Virus record (IMG/VR): IMGVR_UViG_3300048589_000504
Span: 1 to 64,000 of that record
Source of the DNA: a virus
Strand: one strand, 5' to 3'
Length of the DNA stretch: 64,000 bases
This document shows positions 3,211 through 63,142 of the stretch, piece by piece (position 1 is the stretch's first letter; every line of letters begins with the position of its first letter). Both the position numbers and the translations under genes were made by a program. Below the pieces are notes generated by a model. That model had not been told where the DNA came from and did not search any database. It worked only from the letters and a program-made list of their open reading frames with translations.

Positions 3211-3664
3211 CAGCAGCAAGCGCATCGGCGCGCGTAACCAGCGCGTCGGCAAGGCCGGAGAGCAGGTCGCCGAGATTATGCTGCGACAGGCGGGCGTGTG
3301 CATGGTCGAGCAGATCGCCACGCCCTACGTAATCTACGCCTCGCGCGGCACTGGCCGCAATCGCTGGGTGCAGATGCGCCACACTGTGAAGGTGAGTGGT
3401 GACCGGCGCGGGATCATGCCGGACGGCCGTCGTGTGCTTTGTGAAGTCAAGGTACGCAGCGGCAATCTGCGCAAGTCGGATTTCGAGGCGCATCAACTCG
3501 CGGCGCTGGAAGAGAACTCGCAACTGAACGGCGTGAGCCTGGTCGCGTGGATTCACCCGGACGAAAGCCTGCTGCTGCGCTGGCCGCTGCCCGGCTTCGA
3601 GAAGGCGCGGGCCAGCATCACGCTGGAAGCAGCGCGCGGACTGCGTTGGGACGGCCGTACATGA
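3200..3664 (+). CDS. PD-(D/E)xK nuclease, Holliday-junction-resolvase-like
   Basis: 154 residues from a GTG at 3200 that overlaps the upstream gene. The catalytic signature is visible as GIMPDGRRVLCEVKVRSG (D, then E-x-K, around residues 72-89), with an N-terminal KAGEQVAEIMLRQAG helix and a Gln in HQLAALEE. This is the layout of RecU/VRR-type phage resolvases that cut branched DNA before packaging. Placement two genes after a recombination ATPase supports the role. Exact sub-family is uncertain. Confidence 0.75.
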   Translation: MAGSSSKRIGARNQRVGKAGEQVAEIMLRQAGVCMVEQIATPYVIYASRGTGRNRWVQMRHTVKVSGDRRGIMPDGRRVLCEVKVRSGNLRKSDFEAHQLAALEENSQLNGVSLVAWIHPDESLLLRWPLPGFEKARASITLEAARGLRWDGRT

Positions 3665-3726
3665 CTGCGCCTGCTAAAGTTTCATATCGTTTTATAGATG
3701 TTTGTGAAGTTTGGAGGTGATTGGTG

Positions 3727-4191
3727 ATGATTGAAAAGAATGAACCATTGGCGAGAGTGGATCGGGCGTTGCGGCGGGCGCAGTTGCAGTCGCTCGGCGC
3801 TGGGCCGGAAGCGGGAACGCAGCAGCAACCGGAACCGGTCGATTTGGAGATGTGGATCGCCCTGAACCGCGTCAAGGGCGGGGCGCTGATTTACAACGTA
3901 GCCAATGACTGGTACATGGCTACGGCGTCGCTGAGCAAGATGGTCCCGAAACTGGTCGGCGCATTGGCCGCCGCCGGTTACATCACGCAGTCCGGTCCAG
4001 GTGTGTACCGGATGAGCGCGAAGGGGCTGCAAGCGTGGGAGGCGTTCCCAACGACAAGCGTGCGCGGCGCCAATGTCGAGGGTATGTGCGACATCTGTCA
4101 CGAGGTCACGGATCTGCACGCGGTCTATGAACGGGCAACCGAACGTTACATGTTTCTGTGCGCCGACTGTCACGAATGGGAGCGGATGTGA
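3727..4191 (+). CDS. winged-helix protein with C-terminal zinc ribbon
   Basis: 154 residues. The ATG at 3727 is chosen because an exceptionally strong Shine-Dalgarno GGAGGTGAT sits at 3713-3721. Residues about 50-105 (LIYNVANDWYMATASLSKM then LVGALAAAGYITQSGPGVY) look like a winged helix-turn-helix. The C-terminus holds two CxxC/CxxCH knuckles (CDICHEV and FLCADCHEW), probably binding zinc. DNA binding is inferred; the target is unknown. Confidence 0.65.
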   Translation: MIEKNEPLARVDRALRRAQLQSLGAGPEAGTQQQPEPVDLEMWIALNRVKGGALIYNVANDWYMATASLSKMVPKLVGALAAAGYITQSGPGVYRMSAKGLQAWEAFPTTSVRGANVEGMCDICHEVTDLHAVYERATERYMFLCADCHEWERM

Positions 4192-4192
4192 G

Positions 4193-4471
4193 ATGGGGAC
4201 CATCTTCCGAAACAGCTACGTGCCGACAGGGCCAATTGACGAAGCCCCGGCCGTGCTGACCCAGACGCCGCATGAGTGGCGCAATGCTGAGTTTACGAAC
4301 GCGGTGTACCGCACGCCTGACGGCGGCAAGACGGCCGTATCTGACGAGTGGGTAAAGCGCAATCTGCGCTGGTATGGCGGCGGGCACATGCGCGGCCCGG
4401 AGCCGACACTGCCTTACTTCGCGTGGGATGCGCCGTGGGTGACGCGCGGCTTCAAAAGGGGGACCGCATGA
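4193..4471 (+). CDS. small hypothetical protein
   Basis: 92 residues from the ATG at 4193, one base after the preceding stop. Rich in Trp, Tyr and Pro (HEWRNAEFTNAVYRTPDGG, DEWVKRNLRWYGGGHM), which suggests a compact soluble fold, but no known domain is visible. It overlaps the next gene by 4 bases (ATGA). Confidence 0.6.
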   Translation: MGTIFRNSYVPTGPIDEAPAVLTQTPHEWRNAEFTNAVYRTPDGGKTAVSDEWVKRNLRWYGGGHMRGPEPTLPYFAWDAPWVTRGFKRGTA

Positions 4472-4740
4472 GATACGACATCACGCTCAGGACACAGGTG
4501 GAGATTGCCGACGACGCCGCGCAGCCGGTACGCCCGCTAAAGCTGGCCGAACTGCTCAAGGATGCGGTCACGCGCACGGCCGTCTTCCAGCAGATCGCGT
4601 TCAGTGAACCGCTCGACGTGAAGGTGACGCGGGTGAAGGAAGAGGGACAGGGCGGGTCGGAGACGGCCGTGGCGGAAACGCCGGGAAAGGCTGCGCCAAA
4701 AGCCAAAACGAAAACAACGCCGGATGCACCGGCGTCATAG
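4468..4740 (+). CDS. small hypothetical protein
   Basis: 90 residues starting at ATGA overlapping the previous stop. The N-terminal 55 residues are mixed alpha/beta (MRYDITLRTQVEIADDAAQP); the C-terminus is a Lys/Ala/Pro-rich flexible tail. No recognised family. Part of the tightly packed early operon. Confidence 0.6.
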   Translation: MRYDITLRTQVEIADDAAQPVRPLKLAELLKDAVTRTAVFQQIAFSEPLDVKVTRVKEEGQGGSETAVAETPGKAAPKAKTKTTPDAPAS

Positions 4741-4758
4741 CAGAAACAGGAGATAGAC

Positions 4759-5169
4759 ATGGTTGACAACATTGACAACATGATTATTGAACATGGCGGG
4801 AAGACGTTCGATATCAGAGCGATGGACAGGGGCGAGCTGCTGCTGCTCAAAATCTCCATTGAGAGCGACATCGACGCGATCAAGTCACAAATCAGGGAAG
4901 CACAGAACCGCGTCGCTGTGGAGCACGAGTACGCGGACCGCGACTGGTATCGTCGCGCCAACGACGCGGCGAAGATCAAGGGGCGGCAGGGGCAGCTCAT
5001 TCAGGCGCGGCTCGGCATCCTGAAACAGCAGGAGAGGGAAGCTCGCCTGAGCAGCCTGCCGCGCCGGTTCATGGACGCGGCTTATGAACTGCTGGATTTG
5101 GAAACGTATCAGCGCATTAACGACGAAGCGCACGCGGCGTTGCGGCGTGAAGGGTTGTTGGAGGATTGA
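4759..5169 (+). CDS. coiled-coil early protein
   Basis: 136 residues behind AGGAGATAGAC. After a short beta segment (IIEHGGKTFDIRAMDRGEL) the protein is almost entirely charged helix from about residue 28 (LLKISIESDIDAIKSQIREA), with heptad spacing suggestive of a coiled coil. Function unknown; one base separates it from the RNA ligase gene, so they are co-translated. Confidence 0.65.
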   Translation: MVDNIDNMIIEHGGKTFDIRAMDRGELLLLKISIESDIDAIKSQIREAQNRVAVEHEYADRDWYRRANDAAKIKGRQGQLIQARLGILKQQEREARLSSLPRRFMDAAYELLDLETYQRINDEAHAALRREGLLED

Positions 5170-5170
5170 C

Positions 5171-6145
5171 ATGGCGAACGATCAAAAGGTCGATGTAATG
5201 AGCGAACTAATGAGCTGCGCGCTAGGAACCGCGATCAGCAGCTACCCCAAGGTCATGGCGTTGGGGCATAAGATGCTTGGCCGCGAGTTTCTTGTCGGCC
5301 AGGTGGTGGTCGAGGAAAAGATCGACGGCAGTCAGTTCTCTTTCGGTACGCGCGACGGGGAGCTGCTATGTCGCAGTAAGAACGTGCAAATCGACCTTGC
5401 CGATCCGGGCATGTTTGCAAAGGCGGTCGCGACCGTGCGCGAGATTCAGCACCGGCTCGTGGACGGCTGGATTTACCGCGCTGAATTCCTCAGCAAGCCG
5501 AAACACAACACATTGAAATACGGCCGTGTGCCGGAGTACTACCTGATCGGCTTCGACGTAGAGGTCGCGCCGTCTGAATTCCTGCGCGAGGCGGCCAAGC
5601 ACATCGCCTTTGAAGAGATCGGCATGGAAGTGGTTCCGCTGTTTTGGCGTGGGCTGGGCAGCGACCTGACACAGGACCTGATCGACAAGTGCCTTCAAGA
5701 AGAGTCGATTCTCGGCGGCGCGCTGGTCGAGGGTGTGGTTATTAAGAACTATGACCAGTTCACGCCGGATGGCAAGATAGCGATGGCGAAGGTTGTCTCT
5801 GAGGCGTTCAAGGAAAAGCACGCGACCGACTGGAAGCAGCGCAATCCGAGCGGTAAGGACGTGATCGTGCTGCTGGCGAACCAGTACGCCACTGAAGCGC
5901 GTTGGCGCAAGGCGGCGCAGCATTTGGCCGAAAGTGGAAACCTTGACGGCTCCCCGCGTGATATCGGCCCGCTCATGAAAGAGGCGCAGCAGGATTTGCG
6001 CAGTGAAGAAGAAGACGCGATCAAGGCCGCGCTGTTCAAGCACTTCTGGCCGCAGATTGCGAAGGGCGCGACGCGCGGCTTGCCGGAGTGGTACAAGGAC
6101 GAACTGGCACAGGCGATGTTCGCGGCAATGGGCAAGGAGGATTGA
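5171..6145 (+). CDS. RNA ligase (Rnl2-like nucleotidyltransferase)
   Basis: 324 residues from the ATG at 5171. The nucleotidyltransferase motifs appear in order: motif I EEKIDGSQFSF with the adenylated Lys at residue 50, a motif III-like RAEFL, motif IV EGVVIKNYDQF and motif V MAKVV. This matches the RNA-ligase family (PF09414-type), which seals nicks through an enzyme-AMP intermediate, in phages often repairing tRNAs cut by host defences. No kinase/phosphatase partner is visible nearby. The C-terminal about 100 residues are helical as in T4 Rnl2-like enzymes. Confidence 0.85.
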   Translation: MANDQKVDVMSELMSCALGTAISSYPKVMALGHKMLGREFLVGQVVVEEKIDGSQFSFGTRDGELLCRSKNVQIDLADPGMFAKAVATVREIQHRLVDGWIYRAEFLSKPKHNTLKYGRVPEYYLIGFDVEVAPSEFLREAAKHIAFEEIGMEVVPLFWRGLGSDLTQDLIDKCLQEESILGGALVEGVVIKNYDQFTPDGKIAMAKVVSEAFKEKHATDWKQRNPSGKDVIVLLANQYATEARWRKAAQHLAESGNLDGSPRDIGPLMKEAQQDLRSEEEDAIKAALFKHFWPQIAKGATRGLPEWYKDELAQAMFAAMGKED

Positions 6146-6146
6146 C

Positions 6147-6599
6147 ATGATTTTCAAAGACCTGCCCATTGGCGCACTGTTCCAGGTAGAACACGAAGAC
6201 CCGCGCCTGCTGCTGTGCAAGACCGAACCGCAACAGAAGAAGATCGGTCGCCGCCTGTGCGTCTTTAACGCGAAAGTGGTCGGAGCGCCGTCCGATCTGT
6301 TCAGCGTTGACGCCTACGATTCAGTTATCGTGGTCGATCCCGAAGACGAGCAGATCGTGGCTGAACGCAAGCTGCTGTGCCTGCTGGATACGGCCGTGGA
6401 CGCGCTATTCGAGCAGATGGAGCCGCCGCCCGCGTGGGCGCAGCAGTTGCGCGTGGTCGCCTACTGGGAAGATCGCGACGCGGTGATGCGGGCTATACAG
6501 CCGTACAAGGGCGAGGTGCGGCCGTTAGTGCACCAGCCGATCAGCTCATCCGCCGGTGAAGCGATAGTGGAGATTGCGCGGGATGAGGTGCGCGAGTGA
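6147..6599 (+). CDS. hypothetical protein next to RNA ligase
   Basis: 150 residues, one base after the ligase gene. The N-terminus ([19 protein letters not shown]) resembles small beta-barrel phage proteins that begin with FKDLPIG and are common beside replication genes, but I cannot assign a function. The gene ends with a GTGA overlap into the methyltransferase gene. Confidence 0.65.
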
Positions 6600-7963
6600 A
6601 CGAACAGGAGCGCGAATACCATCCGGCAGCCAACATATTCCCGCTGATGCAAGGGGCGGAGTACGAAGACCTGAAAGCCGACATCGCTGCCAATGGCCTG
6701 CGGGAAGCTATCTGGCTGCACAAAGACGGCCGTATCATCGACGGGCGTAATCGGCATAGGGCGTGTCTGGACACCGACACGCTGCCGCAATTCAGGACGT
6801 GGGGCGGGAAAGGGTCGTTGGTGTCGTTCGTGGTGTCGCTGAACTTGCACCGGCGGCATCTGAGCAGCAGCCAGCGCGCGGCCGCGGCGATTGAAATGTT
6901 ACCGCTGTACGAAGCTGAGGCGAAAGAGCGGCAAGTGACGCTGGCTGGTACGCGCCGGAACGATGAAGCAGACCTTCCGCAATTAATTGCGGAAGGTGCA
7001 ACCGGTGAAGCGCGCGACATTGTTGCGCAAGACTTCGGCACGAACCGGCAATACGTTTCCGACGCCAAGCGCCTGAACGAAGAGGCGCCTGACATTTTTG
7101 AGCGAGTCAAATTAGGAAAGACCACAATCCCGAAGGCGAACAAGGAACTGAAAGAGCGCAATCAAGCCCCTCGTCATTTGACAATCCCCTCCCTCGCTGA
7201 AGAGATGATCGGCCTACCCGATCAAGAACGCTTCGAGCGGCTCGGCTGGGGTCTGCGCACATGGGATGACTGGCGCTTCGACAAGTGCGATGAACGCTTT
7301 GGCGACGACTGGCCCGGCCGCATTCCCGCGCAATTAGTCGCTCACACGCTGTTCTACTTTACTCGCGAGGGAGACAGAGTGCTCGATCCAATGGCGGGCG
7401 GCGGCGTGGTGCCGGATGTGTGCAAGGTGTTCGGACGGCCGTGTGATGCCTTCGATCTGGCGACACGGCCGGAGCGACCGGAGATCCGTAAGCACGTCTG
7501 GAATCCGGCGTCTCCACAGTGGCCCGCGGACACCGAGCCGCCGGACCTTATCTTCTTCGACCCGCCTTACTTCAGCAAGAAACAGAGCGAGTACGCAGAC
7601 AAAGCCGGAGCCGGAGAAGTGCCGATCAGCGACCTTGACCGGCGCGCCTACCTGGACTTCTTTGCCCGCTTCTTCCGGCTGGCACGCGCACGATCCGGAC
7701 ATGGCACGCGCATGGCGTTTCTGAACGCGGATTGGCGCGACTTTCAGGGCACTCCCGCGGTTGATGAAGCGCACTATGAGGCGATCACGCTGCTGGATTA
7801 CGCCGACCTGCTGAAGCGCAACGGCTGGAACATCACGCACCTGATCGACGCGCCGATGTCAACCGAACGCTTTAACGCCGGGGTTGTGTCAGCGATGCAA
7901 AAGCGGCGCATCCTCGGCGTCGTGCGCAGGACACTCATCATGGCGGTGGCGACGAATGACTAA
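6596..7963 (+). CDS. ParB-like domain fused to DNA methyltransferase
   Basis: 455 residues from the GTG at 6596. Residues about 10-60 form a ParB/Srx-type nuclease-like domain with the signature [13 protein letters not shown], followed by a helical region ([14 protein letters not shown]). Residues about 240-455 are a DNA methyltransferase: SAM motif [12 protein letters not shown] near residue 260 and catalytic DPPY in [13 protein letters not shown] near residue 320. Such ParB-methylase fusions are common phage orphan methyltransferases that modify phage DNA. The DPPY motif suggests N4-cytosine or N6-adenine; the target is unknown. A 24-bp perfect palindrome lies inside the gene at 6973-6996. 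Confidence 0.85.
6973..6996. repeat. 24-bp perfect palindrome inside a coding region
   Basis: The 24 bases are their own reverse complement, with arms CCTTCCGCAATT/AATTGCGGAAGG. They encode DLPQLIAE between the ParB-like and methyltransferase domains. The same arm sequence CCTTCCGCAA returns at 44711-44734 in an intergenic hairpin. Confidence 0.9.
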
Positions 7964-43811: not shown

Positions 43812-44132
43812 ATGGATTTTCCAGCTTTTCAGATCGTGGCAATGGCGCTCATCTCGTTTGGATTGGAGCTAATCCCTCCACTGAAACGATGGTGGGATAG
43901 CGTATTCAACAGCGCACAGAAGCAGTTCGTGATCGCGGTCGTGGTGCTGCTGCTGGCCGTCGGGCAAATGGCCTACGGCTGCGCGTTTAATCAGACCTGC
44001 CCGGCAGACTATGCCAAAGCAGGCGTCGATCTGGTTATCGCCGTACTTGCCGGGCTACTAACTTCAGCCGGTGCGTACAAATCGACGAACTACATCGGCG
44101 AAGAACTGGCCTACGGCCGGGGCGCTGAGTAG
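43812..44132 (+). CDS. holin candidate
   Basis: 106 residues behind AAAGGGGAGACAGAC. Three transmembrane segments: FQIVAMALISFGLEL, QFVIAVVVLLLAVGQMAYGC and DLVIAVLAGLLTSAGAY, with short loops, fitting a class I holin that opens the membrane for the lysin encoded two genes downstream. Assignment rests on size, topology and position. Confidence 0.6.
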   Translation: MDFPAFQIVAMALISFGLELIPPLKRWWDSVFNSAQKQFVIAVVVLLLAVGQMAYGCAFNQTCPADYAKAGVDLVIAVLAGLLTSAGAYKSTNYIGEELAYGRGAE

Positions 44133-44539: not shown

Positions 44540-44674
44540 CAGACCGGCAAATCGCCACGCAGCACCGCGCAGGCTGGCGCTGGTCGTGTTTTCATGCGCG
44601 GCATGGATGATTCTGCGTCTACGAACGTTTTACAACGTTGTGCGGCGTTTTTTGAGGATTCGAGAAAGCAAGAA

Positions 44675-44768
44675 CCTTCGGCCAATTGGCCGGAAGTGGC
44701 GAGAGCGCGACCTTCCGCAATTCTTTGCGGGAGGTAGGAGAGTGAACCTAATGCCAATTGGCATTAGG
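44675..44768 (+). repeat. three consecutive palindromes before the lysin gene
   Basis: Hairpin 1: 44675-44696, centred on GGCCAATTGGCC (44680-44691). Hairpin 2: 44711-44734, 10-bp stem CCTTCCGCAA with TTGCGGGAGG. Palindrome 3: 44747-44768, a perfect 22-bp palindrome with arms CCTAATGCCAA. The last ends 13 bases before the lysin start and could hide or expose its ribosome-binding site, or be an operator. Upstream, 44626-44655 holds AACGTT boxes and a GCGGCGTTTTTT stretch like the late leaders. Confidence 0.8.
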
Positions 44769-44781
44769 TGAGGGAGAAGAC

Positions 44782-47589
44782 ATGGCATTCCTGAAAGTGA
44801 ATGGATTCCATACCGCTGCGGCCGGAAGCCGCACGGATGGTATCGGCGATTTTCTGAGGCAGGTAGACGCGGCGGGCGTGCCTTTTCTGGCCTACTGCGT
44901 CGGCGGCACGGCTAGCCTGATCGACGCGCAGAACATCATGCGCAGATCAAGCGTGCCGCATAACGCGATCTTCCGGCAGGATGTGTTCCCGCACAACCAG
45001 GGCGGAGACGACGTGCCGGATTACAACAAGCCGCCCAAGCAGGCGGCGCAAGAGCAGTGGGAATCTCACGTGGCCCGCTGGCCGAGCGAGCTTGATCCGG
45101 CCCTGATCTGGGGCGAAACAGTCAACGAGTTGCGCAAGGAAGTCGAGTGGGCGGACTGGATTGGCGAGTTCTGCTATGAGACTGGCTTGTTAGCGGTCGC
45201 TTCCGGCCGTAAATGGTGCGGGCCAGGATACAGCGCGGGCACGCCGGACGAGGGCGCGTGGGAGACGCCGGGCATGCTCAAGTTCCTGCGTTTGTGCGCC
45301 GCGCATCCGGATCAGGTCGGCGTGGCCTTACACGAGTACAGTCTGGAACCGGAAGACCTCTGGCACAACAAAGGCTATCACATTGGCCGCTTTACGCAGC
45401 TCATCGCCGCCTGTGAGCGGCATGGCATTGCGCCGCCTACGATCTTCTTCACAGAATGGGGTTGGGGGGAGCGGGCCATTCCGGGCAACCGGCAAGATGC
45501 GCTCGACGAAATTCTGGAAGTCGGCGAACTGTACGCCAAGTATCCAAGCGTGAAAGGCGCGGCGATCTGGGCGCTGGACAATGGCTGGGGCGGGCTGGCC
45601 GACCAGGTGCATGGCCTGATGGAACCGCTTGCGCAATTGCTGACGACCACGCGCTATCCCGATCCGGTCACGACAAAGCCGCCTGCCGAAGGCTCGACTG
45701 AACCGCCATACGGCACCGGCAACGCAGGCTCCGGCGCGCCGCGTGTGCAGTATAAGCGCCGCTATCTGGTCGCGCCGCAAGACTGCACGAAAGAGCAGTG
45801 GCTGCGCATCGCTGAAGCTGCCTACGCCGGTCGCGTGACGATGGGCGGCTCCTACGATGACGCCGGAGTTGGCGCGTTGGCTGACAAGACGGCCGTGCTT
45901 TACGACCTGCAGGCCGCGCAGCATGACACGTTCGTAGCATGGTACGCGCAGCATTATCCCGGCACGAAAGTGGAGTTTGCGAGCAGTGACCCGGCCGCCA
46001 ACGCGCCGACCTTCACCATCCCGACCAAGCGCGCTGACATGCCGCTTGTCGTGGACATTTCCAAGTGGCAGGCGCGGGCGGTGAGCGGCGGCGGCTTCGC
46101 GACAGATACCATCGACTGGCAGACGTTGCGCGACAGCGGCAACGTGCGCGGGGCGATTCTGCGGGCGTCTGTCGGGCTGGCCGTCGATCCGACGTACAGC
46201 GCCTTCGCCGGACAGGTGGACGCGCGCGGGCTGGCACGCGGCAACTACCACTTCCTGACCAACGACGACGGCGCGAAACAGGCGGCGCTGTTTCTGAAGC
46301 ATCGCTTGCCCGGCGCGCTCGGTGACTGGCTGGACATTGAGGCATTGGCCGGAAAGCTGCCCGCTACGGCCGTGGTGCTGGATTTCGTCGCCGCGTATTT
46401 CAAGGCGACTGGTAAGGCCATCGGCATCTATACCAACAGCGGGTCATTCAACCCGCTCGGCCTGACCCGCGCGCAGGTGCTCGGCGCGCAGCTTTGGGTA
46501 GCGAACTACGTCGATTTGGACCGGCCGCTCTCTATTCCGGCCGCATGGAACGCCAAAGAATGGGGTGTGGACAACAGCGCGATCCGCTTCTGGCAGTACG
46601 CCGCCGGTCGCTTGCCCGGTTATGACCGCGATATCGATCTGAACGTCTTTCACGGATCGCATGAGGAATTCAGTCACCTGTTCGGTGAACCTACAGCGCC
46701 GGTTGTGGTCACGCCCACGCCGCCGGTTGCTACGCCCAAACCGACGAAGCCGGTCCTGCTCGGCTTGCACGCCGGAGCGGACGGCGGCGACATCGGCACG
46801 CTGGAAATGCGCGAGTTTCAGACGCTGGCGCCGGGCGTGATTAAGGTTCTGTCCAGTTCATCTGAGTTCACCGTGCGCACATTGGCCGTCCAGCATCCAA
46901 AGGCCGCGTTCATCGTGCGCGCCTTTCTGGATATCGGCGGCAGGCCGGTCACGCCGGAACAGTTCGTTGACTGGACCTTGCCGGACGTGCGCAGATCGGT
47001 GAACGCACTGGCCGGGCATGAGGTATGGGTAGAGCTGCACAATGAGCCGAACCTGACAATGGAAGGGCTGAAAGCGGCGTGGGCCAGCGGCGCGTATTTC
47101 AACATCTGGTATCTGAAGCTGCTCGGCCTGTATCGCAGGGCGCTGCCGGGCGGGCGCTTCCTGTTTCCGGGGCTGTCACCGGGCGGGGACATCGCCGGTA
47201 TTCGTGAGGATAGTTTCGGATTCCTGACCGCTTGCGCGGGCGCGGTCAACGCTTCCGACGGCCTGGCGGTGCATGGCTACTTTGCGCCGCAATCCGGCTG
47301 GTCAATGGAGCGCACGCTGGATCAGATCGGGCCGGTCGCGAACCTGTTTGCGCACAAGGCGCTCTGGGTAACTGAGGCGAGTAACAACCAGCCCGGCGCG
47401 ACACCGAGCGAGAAGGCGGCGCAGTACGTGCGCTTTGCTAAAGAGTTGGCCCGGTGGCCGAACGTGCGCGGCGTGACCTACTTTGTGGCGAGCGCCTCTA
47501 ATCCGGCGTGGGGCTGGCAATCCGGCGGCAGCGCGGAAACGTGGGTCCCGGTCGGCATGGCGGCTCTTGTGAAGGAGCGTGGCGGGTGA
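44782..47589 (+). CDS. multi-domain lysin: glycosidase, GH25 muramidase, second glycosidase
   Basis: 935 residues from the ATG at 44782 behind GAGGGAGAAGAC. Domain 1 (about 1-300) is a TIM-barrel glycosidase with WGETVNEL near 112 and FFTEWGWGER near 222, the two acidic residues of clan-A enzymes. Domain 2 (about 420-630) is a GH25 lysozyme: VVDISKWQA, LRASVGLAVD, DWLDIEALAG and IRFWQYAAGRLPG. Domain 3 (about 650-935) is another clan-A-like glycosidase with ELHNEPN near 752 and WVTEASNN near 861. It should cleave peptidoglycan and perhaps a cell-surface glycan. No signal peptide, so release through the holin. Confidence 0.85.
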   Translation: MAFLKVNGFHTAAAGSRTDGIGDFLRQVDAAGVPFLAYCVGGTASLIDAQNIMRRSSVPHNAIFRQDVFPHNQGGDDVPDYNKPPKQAAQEQWESHVARWPSELDPALIWGETVNELRKEVEWADWIGEFCYETGLLAVASGRKWCGPGYSAGTPDEGAWETPGMLKFLRLCAAHPDQVGVALHEYSLEPEDLWHNKGYHIGRFTQLIAACERHGIAPPTIFFTEWGWGERAIPGNRQDALDEILEVGELYAKYPSVKGAAIWALDNGWGGLADQVHGLMEPLAQLLTTTRYPDPVTTKPPAEGSTEPPYGTGNAGSGAPRVQYKRRYLVAPQDCTKEQWLRIAEAAYAGRVTMGGSYDDAGVGALADKTAVLYDLQAAQHDTFVAWYAQHYPGTKVEFASSDPAANAPTFTIPTKRADMPLVVDISKWQARAVSGGGFATDTIDWQTLRDSGNVRGAILRASVGLAVDPTYSAFAGQVDARGLARGNYHFLTNDDGAKQAALFLKHRLPGALGDWLDIEALAGKLPATAVVLDFVAAYFKATGKAIGIYTNSGSFNPLGLTRAQVLGAQLWVANYVDLDRPLSIPAAWNAKEWGVDNSAIRFWQYAAGRLPGYDRDIDLNVFHGSHEEFSHLFGEPTAPVVVTPTPPVATPKPTKPVLLGLHAGADGGDIGTLEMREFQTLAPGVIKVLSSSSEFTVRTLAVQHPKAAFIVRAFLDIGGRPVTPEQFVDWTLPDVRRSVNALAGHEVWVELHNEPNLTMEGLKAAWASGAYFNIWYLKLLGLYRRALPGGRFLFPGLSPGGDIAGIREDSFGFLTACAGAVNASDGLAVHGYFAPQSGWSMERTLDQIGPVANLFAHKALWVTEASNNQPGATPSEKAAQYVRFAKELARWPNVRGVTYFVASASNPAWGWQSGGSAETWVPVGMAALVKERGG

Positions 47590-60703: not shown

Positions 60704-62367
60704 CAAAGCCGATCACCCGCAACACGCTCTTCTACGGCGACAATCTAGGCGTTCTGCGCAACTATGTGCCAGATGAGAGCGTTGATCTTGTCTATCTCGA
60801 TCCGCCGTTCAATTCCAAGCGCACTTATAACGTCCTGTTCAAGCAAGAAAGCGGGGAAGAATCCGAAGCGCAGATCGCCGCGTTTGATGACACTTGGCAC
60901 TGGGATCAATCCACGGCCGCGCAGTATCACGAATTGATCACCGAAGCGCCCGATCATATCAGCCGCATGATCGGGGCCATGCGGGAATTCATCGGCACGA
61001 ATCAGATGATGGCCTATCTGGTCATGATGGCCGCCCGCCTGATCGAACTGCACCGCGTCCTCAAACCCACCGGCAGCCTCTACCTGCACTGCGACCCGAC
61101 GGCCAGTCACTACCTAAAAGTTGTCCTGGATACAATTTTTGAGCCGCAAAACTTCACAAATGAAATTATCTGGAAGCGCACAAACACGCACAATGATGCA
61201 ACGACAAAGTTCCCAGATGTAGCAGATATTATCTTGCTATATTCAAAATCAAGAAAGAGCTTGTTTATTCCACAGCATTCAGAACATGATCCGAAATACA
61301 TTAAGAATTTTTATCGTCATGATGATAATGACGGACGGGGTCCATACACCTTAGATAATATGGCAAGTCCTAATCCACGCCCTAACATGATGTATGATTG
61401 GAAGGGCTATCCATACCCAACAATGGGCTGGCGTTACCAGGAAGAAACGATGGCCAAATTGGATCAGGAAGGGCGAATTTATTATCCCAAAAACAAAGAC
61501 GGTTCTTTTGACACCACCAAAAGGCTAAGGTTAAAGCGCTATCTACATGAGCAGCCGGGTCCAGTTATCGGGAACGTTTGGACAGATATATCCCCTGTAT
61601 CTGCTCATGCCACAGAGCGTTTAGGATACCCTACGCAGAAACCTATAGAACTTCTGGAACGCATCATCTCCGCCAGCAGCAACCCCGGCGACGTCGTCCT
61701 CGACCCGTTCTGCGGCTGCGGCACGACCATCGCCGCCGCCCAAAAGCTGGAGCGCCGCTGGATCGGCATCGACATCACCCACCTCTCGATCACGCTCATG
61801 AAATATCGCCTGCAAGAGATGTTCCCCGACGCCGAATTCGCCATCATCGGCGAGCCGGCCGACCTGGACGGCGCGCGCCGCCTGGCCGCGCAAGACCGCC
61901 ACCAGTTTGAATGGTGGGCGCTGTCGCTGGTCAAGGCACGGCCGTCCGGCGGCGCAGCGGGCAGCAAGCGCGGCAAAAAAGGCGCGGACCAGGGCATCGA
62001 CGGCGTGATCACCTTCATCGACGACGCCGGCGGCGCGCCCAAACGGATCATCGTGCAGGTCAAAAGCGGCCACGTCAAAAGCGGCGACATCCGCGACCTG
62101 GCCGGCACCATCGAGCGCGAGAAGGCCGCTATGGGGATATACATCACGCTTGAAGAGCCAACGAAGCCAATGATTACTGAAGCGGCTTCGGCCGGGTACT
62201 ATCACTCGCCGGGCTGGAATCAAGACTATCCGCGAATTCAGATTCTAACGATCCGGGAGCTGCTCAACGGCGCGGCTGTAAAGATGCCGCCCGCAGGAAT
62301 GACCTTCAAGCAAGCGGAGCGAGTGAAGGAATCGGGGGCAGTCCAGAAAGGTTTGTTCGATGGCTGA
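60700..62367 (+). CDS. DNA methyltransferase fused to an Mrr-like endonuclease domain
   Basis: 555 residues from the ATG at 60700. Beta-class methyltransferase order: catalytic LVYLDPPFNSKR near residue 28-39 and the SAM motif VLDPFCGCGTTIAAA near 331-345. Residues about 145-310 (NEIIWKRTNTHNDATTKFPD) are the target-recognition region and are markedly AT-rich (61130-61640) without ACGGCCGT. Residues about 400-555 contain DQGIDGVITF and RIIVQVKSG, the D and Q/ExK of an Mrr/PD-(D/E)xK nuclease. This reads as a single-chain restriction-modification enzyme. Specificity is unknown. Confidence 0.85.
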   Translation: MTKPITRNTLFYGDNLGVLRNYVPDESVDLVYLDPPFNSKRTYNVLFKQESGEESEAQIAAFDDTWHWDQSTAAQYHELITEAPDHISRMIGAMREFIGTNQMMAYLVMMAARLIELHRVLKPTGSLYLHCDPTASHYLKVVLDTIFEPQNFTNEIIWKRTNTHNDATTKFPDVADIILLYSKSRKSLFIPQHSEHDPKYIKNFYRHDDNDGRGPYTLDNMASPNPRPNMMYDWKGYPYPTMGWRYQEETMAKLDQEGRIYYPKNKDGSFDTTKRLRLKRYLHEQPGPVIGNVWTDISPVSAHATERLGYPTQKPIELLERIISASSNPGDVVLDPFCGCGTTIAAAQKLERRWIGIDITHLSITLMKYRLQEMFPDAEFAIIGEPADLDGARRLAAQDRHQFEWWALSLVKARPSGGAAGSKRGKKGADQGIDGVITFIDDAGGAPKRIIVQVKSGHVKSGDIRDLAGTIEREKAAMGIYITLEEPTKPMITEAASAGYYHSPGWNQDYPRIQILTIRELLNGAAVKMPPAGMTFKQAERVKESGAVQKGLFDG

Positions 62368-63142
62368 TAAAGAGCTGCAAACACTGGATCAAAAAACAGT
62401 CGATTTCTACGGCGACGAATTGGCGGCGGCCCGCCTTGATGACGGCCGTATCTACGCCAGTCTGCGGCATATGTGCCAGGCGCTAGATATTGACACAACA
62501 GGCCAGCGGCAGCGGATCAACCGGCACAAGGTTCTCAATTCGGGGCTAGGGGTTTGCAAATTACAAACCCCTGGGGGATTGCAAGATTCTTACGTGCTGC
62601 GCGTCGATCTGGTTCCGCTATGGTTGACTGGCATCCGTACAAGCGCAGTCAATGAGACAGTCCGACCGAAACTGGAAAAGTTTCAGGAAGAGGCGGCTGC
62701 CGTTTTATGGGAGGCGTTCCAAGAAGGGCGACTAACTGCCGATACATCATTTGATGATCTGCTGGCCAGCGACAGCCCGACAGCCCAAGCCTACAGAATG
62801 GCTCAAGCGGTGATGACACTGGCACGGCAGCAGCTCCTAATTGAAAGCCGCGTCGTCAACGTGGAAGGTCGCTTGGAGTTGATCGAAGCGCAGCTGGGCG
62901 CCTCAGATCGGTTTGTTACCGAGGACCAGGCCAGCCAGATCAGCCAAGCCGTGAAAGCGGTGGCAATGGTTCTGAGCAAGGCCAGCGGCACGAATCAATA
63001 CGGATCAGTGTATGGCGAGCTGTATCGGAAGTTTGGCATCACCTCATACAAGCAGCTCCCGGCCGCAAGGTTCGAGGAAGCAATGGCATTTCTTACTTCT
63101 CGTTTCCGATACCACTCGGCGCTGCTAATGTACTTGCTGTAA
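62360..63142 (+). CDS. P22-type antirepressor (P22_AR_N + ORF6C)
   Basis: 260 residues. N-terminal domain: VDFYGDELAAARLDDGRIYA, SLRHMCQALDIDTTGQRQRI and the hallmark LRVDLVPLWLTGIRTS. C-terminal ORF6C-type domain: NQYGSVYGELYRKFGITSYK, QLPAARFEEAMAFL. Such proteins bind and inactivate the prophage repressor. The gene overlaps the restriction enzyme gene by 8 bases and lies beside the palindromic operator at 63759. A 9-bp inverted repeat with a 7-base loop (62549-62573) lies inside the gene at TPGG. Confidence 0.85.
   Translation: MADKELQTLDQKTVDFYGDELAAARLDDGRIYASLRHMCQALDIDTTGQRQRINRHKVLNSGLGVCKLQTPGGLQDSYVLRVDLVPLWLTGIRTSAVNETVRPKLEKFQEEAAAVLWEAFQEGRLTADTSFDDLLASDSPTAQAYRMAQAVMTLARQQLLIESRVVNVEGRLELIEAQLGASDRFVTEDQASQISQAVKAVAMVLSKASGTNQYGSVYGELYRKFGITSYKQLPAARFEEAMAFLTSRFRYHSALLMYLL

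Follow-up and report, generated by a model that had tools for sequence, protein, structure and literature searches.

Genomic context of the lysin gene

The stretch of viral DNA analyzed here, hereafter the window, covers 64,000 nucleotides of a 70.6-kb virus record (IMGVR_UViG_3300048589_000504). It encodes terminase, portal, head protease, and tape measure proteins and, immediately downstream of the tail genes, a protein of 935 residues with three predicted catalytic modules (44782..47589, + strand). The ORF opens with an ATG at position 44782, preceded by AGGGAGAAG, and closes with a stop codon at 47587-47589; no signal peptide is seen. The protein has the attributes of an endolysin, being a peptidoglycan hydrolase encoded in the late region of a phage genome with a holin candidate nearby. 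This candidate, an ORF of 106 residues with at least three hydrophobic segments (43812..44132, + strand) picked by hydropathy alone, did not return any PHROG match. Several of the related lysins described below are adjoined by small membrane-protein genes, one of which matches holin PHROGs. The location of the gene just downstream of the tail genes, and the fact that depolymerases are often virion parts, might rather suggest a virion-associated depolymerase used for entry. Such a role is very improbable in view of the small hydrophobic ORFs that lie near this gene and directly against several of its relatives, including the one matching holins, and of the 935 residues themselves, in which no tail domain is recognized.

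Directly upstream of the lysin ATG, two palindromes of 24 nt each (44674-44697 and 44746-44769), the second of which is perfect, share the core GCCAATTGGC, and a third hairpin lies between them. The RNA folding of this stretch is far better than that of its shuffles (z -4.7). An Rfam search of the hairpins returned zero matches, and a similar motif sought in the lysin relatives was absent. These hairpins possibly control lysin expression. Of note, the window carries at its right end a gene (62360-63142) with a 35% homologue (L171, 14344-15174), located a short distance downstream from the lysin region in a prophage-like contig from the metagenome-assembled genome (MAG) G441.

Modular organization of the probable endolysin

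The PF01183 profile identifies a GH25 muramidase in the whole protein (E 5.8e-15, 56.5 bits vs a cut-off of 27), which covers residues ~424-633 (46051..46680, + strand) and returns E 3.7e-16 when the domain is scanned alone. Its acidic residues are located at D425 (46054), D518 (46333), and E520 (46339), matching the first-strand Asp and the DxE motif of the GH25 active site. Like other GH25 endolysins (PF01183; PHROG 291), the protein thus combines this core and its acidic residues with the lack of a visible signal peptide and a nearby holin candidate. Unlike them, it has its core surrounded by a pair of GH-A-like domains and by a new domain of small size. The small domain, which the sequence-only reading of this DNA overlooked, spans residues ~317-405 (45730..45996, + strand) and is conserved across L052, L062, L097, and several viral loci; it is duplicated in L097 (residues ~296-393 and ~403-492). 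It is modeled with low confidence by AlphaFold2, so that no fold is assignable, it has no library match, and sequence searches against solved structures gave nothing convincing. It may represent a new wall-binding module.

Library scans of the whole protein leave ~300 and ~280 residues unnamed on either side of GH25. The sequence-only reading had proposed that these segments are two clan-A-like glycosidase domains, each with two acidic motifs, and both the predicted folds and the near-invariance of the catalytic residues confirm this proposal. Alignments of viral and Chloroflexota relatives served as AlphaFold2 input for both flanks. The N-terminal flank (residues 1-300; 44782..45681, + strand) is predicted as a confident (β/α)8 barrel, with pLDDT values >80 in most ten-residue blocks, and the C-terminal one (residues 657-935; 46750..47586, + strand) as a (β/α)8 barrel as well (pLDDT 90.4, pTM 0.91). 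Their best fold neighbors in the PDB are clan GH-A-type enzymes, including GH5, GH39, GH86, GH26, GH128, and PslG, matches that hit several GH families without separating GH5, GH39, and GH128 for the flanks. By sequence, comparison with the PDB yielded nothing, or weak matches only, for an assignment to these three families, and neither flank returned a sequence-level match with characterized enzymes. No Pfam profile hits the N flank, even scanned alone; the C flank scanned alone hits PF11790 (Glyco_hydro_cc; 25.8 bits vs a cut-off of 21) over profile positions 127-209 out of 237, a match unlisted in the whole-protein scan. Compared directly, the two flanks do not exhibit significant similarity to each other.

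The acidic motifs are N115-E116 and E225 in the N flank (codons 45127-45129 for E116 and 45454-45456 for E225), and N754-E755 and E865 in the C flank (codons 47044-47046 for E755 and 47374-47376 for E865). In the models, E116 and E755 occupy the acid/base position after strand 4, and E225 and E865 the nucleophile position at the end of strand 7. Among distinct sequences, the Glu pair is intact in 89 of 90 N domains and in all 31 C domains, the sole exception being an N relative devoid of the acid/base residue. Both Glu residues and a His/Tyr of strand 6 are near-invariant over these 121 flank domains. Many lysins possess binding domains beside their enzyme, and the flanks have no known activity, so they might be glycosidase-derived wall-binding domains accompanying a core that alone cuts. 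This is unlikely, because binding alone would not need such near-invariance of the two Glu and the strand 6 residue. The sequence-only reading would have been refuted by non-catalytic binding folds lacking the acidic pair; the pair is present in both flanks, an outcome that speaks for catalysis. Judging from fold and conserved residues, the flanks are thus best regarded as predicted retaining clan GH-A glycosidases. They share with PslG and other GH39 and GH128 enzymes the fold and the placement of the two Glu, PslG and GH128 being among the best structural matches of the C flank. They differ from these enzymes in being lysin parts, and show no significant sequence match with them. A literature search for lysins with GH39-type domains found no paper.

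Architectures of related proteins

The three-module layout is not unique but belongs to a family common to phages and hosts, which could not be seen from the window alone. One or both flanks are found in 31 viral contigs, which include near-copies (e.g. L118/L119, L123/L126/L127, and L142/L143), and in many genomes. Among the viral loci, L125 joins the N flank, the small domain, M23, and the C flank, L131 has the N flank and then the small domain, M23, and the C flank, and L137 carries Amidase_2 between the two flanks, as does L136, whose N flank is cut by the contig end. The N flank is followed by M23 in L116, L117, L118, L123, L130, and L138, the latter with a separate C gene, and by GH25 in L121 and L132. 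Finally, L140, L141, and L142 assemble GH24, the small domain, and the C flank. The flanks hence persist in viral loci, and the peptidoglycan enzyme varies between GH25, M23, Amidase_2, GH24, and, in a prophage-like contig, a C39-like peptidase.

Genomes provide further arrangements. L052 comprises N, small, and C domains without any recognized peptidoglycan enzyme, and L097 the N flank, two small domains, M23, and the C flank. L006 (Anaerolineae bacterium CH7) and L007 join the N flank to Ig-like domains, C39, and a GH-A-like C part. A host protein of ~800 residues, found in five genomes, begins with an M23-like part and also carries SH3-like repeats and the C flank, M23 and SH3 being recognized by eye. 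In the host order, L106 contains the N flank, GH25, M23, SH3, and the start of the C flank; this protein (3565-6646), cut by the contig end, has four predicted catalytic modules in a single chain. The multidomain hydrolases encoded by the host order (L006, L007, L097, L106, and L166-L170) resemble the phage protein in carrying the N and/or C flank, often beside C39 or M23. They differ from it in being mostly cellular genes, often with N_BRCA1_IG or SH3-like domains, and GH25 occurs in L106 alone among those scanned. Several of these wall-hydrolase-like proteins (L166-L170; L006, 2728-5889; L007 and L008, 5995-9156) are apparently devoid of a signal peptide despite domains suggesting extracellular work. 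The host order also commonly encodes the N flank in a protein of ~450 residues, where it is accompanied by an N-terminal extension and a Pro/Thr-rich linker, features suggesting that this protein is secreted.

These architectures bear on the substrate of the flanks. As the flanks travel with peptidoglycan enzymes in both phages and cells, they could act on peptidoglycan itself, either on its glycan strands or on a modified sugar, the three modules then sharing one substrate. This is improbable, considering that their nearest folds are polysaccharide hydrolases (GH39, PslG, GH5, and GH128) and that the single-domain, probably secreted form is common in the host order without a peptidoglycan enzyme. 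Rather, since the flanks are kept, the core is freely replaced, and the ~450-residue N-flank protein is found in the host order, an envelope glycan of this order is the most likely substrate of the flanks. That related viruses keep the barrels and swap the middle cutter suggests a second polysaccharide in the host wall, which would have to be cut as well.

Distribution of the flanks and link to the probable host

Single-sequence scans of viral contigs with the whole protein, the N flank, the C flank, or GH25 returned zero matches, and the viral relatives were found only with profiles built from Chloroflexota relatives. Against 50,697 GenBank phages, tblastn did not find either flank; the GH25 part alone matches rhizobial and lactobacilli phages, and an M23-bearing relative gives matches confined to M23. 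The portal query returned identical copies from other samples and nothing else. The first N-flank relatives were three Chloroflexota loci, and the Anaerolineae order of the first N-flank genome, with 56 genomes, was taken as the search set. The N flank is present in 50 of these 56 genomes vs 3 in a phylum-wide draw of 400, and all three of the latter recur in the list of the order. A class-wide profile reports weak N matches elsewhere, the full-length strong ones being those of the order, along with one unplaced short fragment (G740, 102 residues, E 4.5e-35). Strong N-domain matches are therefore almost entirely restricted to one Anaerolineae order. The C flank is found in 47 of the 56 genomes, several via weak matches only.

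Phage contigs occur in two MAGs of the order, with homologous genes for structural proteins. In G441:C62, homologues of the tape measure and tail genes are followed by a lysin with N, C39-like, and C domains, and then by two membrane-protein genes. G406:C211 encodes homologues of the window terminase (50%), portal, protease, and tape measure, and ends before any lysin. As MAGs may be misbinned, this prophage evidence is not proof of the host. In a quick tree without bootstrap, the N flank of the window groups as sister with a cellular gene from G413 (67% identity, support 99), which also carries the small domain, and viral and cellular N domains are interspersed. The flanks were thus likely captured from hosts, more than once, as far as these sequence relationships indicate. 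The host itself is probably a filamentous member of the Anaerolineae, filamentous growth being suggested by the habitat and by the literature on sludge Chloroflexota.

Proposed function in lysis

The protein is probably an endolysin whose core cuts peptidoglycan and whose flanks would cut an envelope glycan typical of the host order. Late in infection, a putative holin would open the membrane for the three-module endolysin, and the small domain between the N flank and GH25 may keep the enzyme attached to the wall. The GH25 core would then cleave the glycan strands of peptidoglycan, and the two retaining GH-A flanks would hydrolyze one or two β-linked envelope polysaccharides typical of the host, so that the combined cuts would make the whole multilayered wall fall apart. 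The earlier suggestion that the layout hints at an additional polysaccharide, and at the type of host envelope, is strengthened by the N matches in a single order and by the retention of the flanks despite the core swaps. Chloroflexota lack outer-membrane markers and are regarded as monoderm, yet have several envelope layers (PMC13319060). In the filamentous Litorilinea aerophila (class Caldilineae), tomography reveals layers, both inner and outer, whose composition is unknown (PMC13319060). A further proposal, which we put forward tentatively and consider somewhat less probable than its contrary, is that the flanks represent two undescribed clan GH-A families cutting a structural polysaccharide of the additional layers of this Anaerolineae order, and that for phages of the order a peptidoglycan cutter placed between two wall-polymer cutters is a general answer to a non-standard envelope. 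Mycobacteriophage LysA and LysB similarly are lysis enzymes matched to an envelope layer beyond peptidoglycan; LysB is a separate lipolytic enzyme, whereas the glycosidases predicted here are fused to the peptidoglycan enzyme.

The N flank is near to an order-specific marker and can link uncultured phages to these bacteria. More broadly, a lysin family that retains two glycosidase-like flanks and exchanges its peptidoglycan enzyme offers reagents and a prediction for the content of the Chloroflexota envelope layers.
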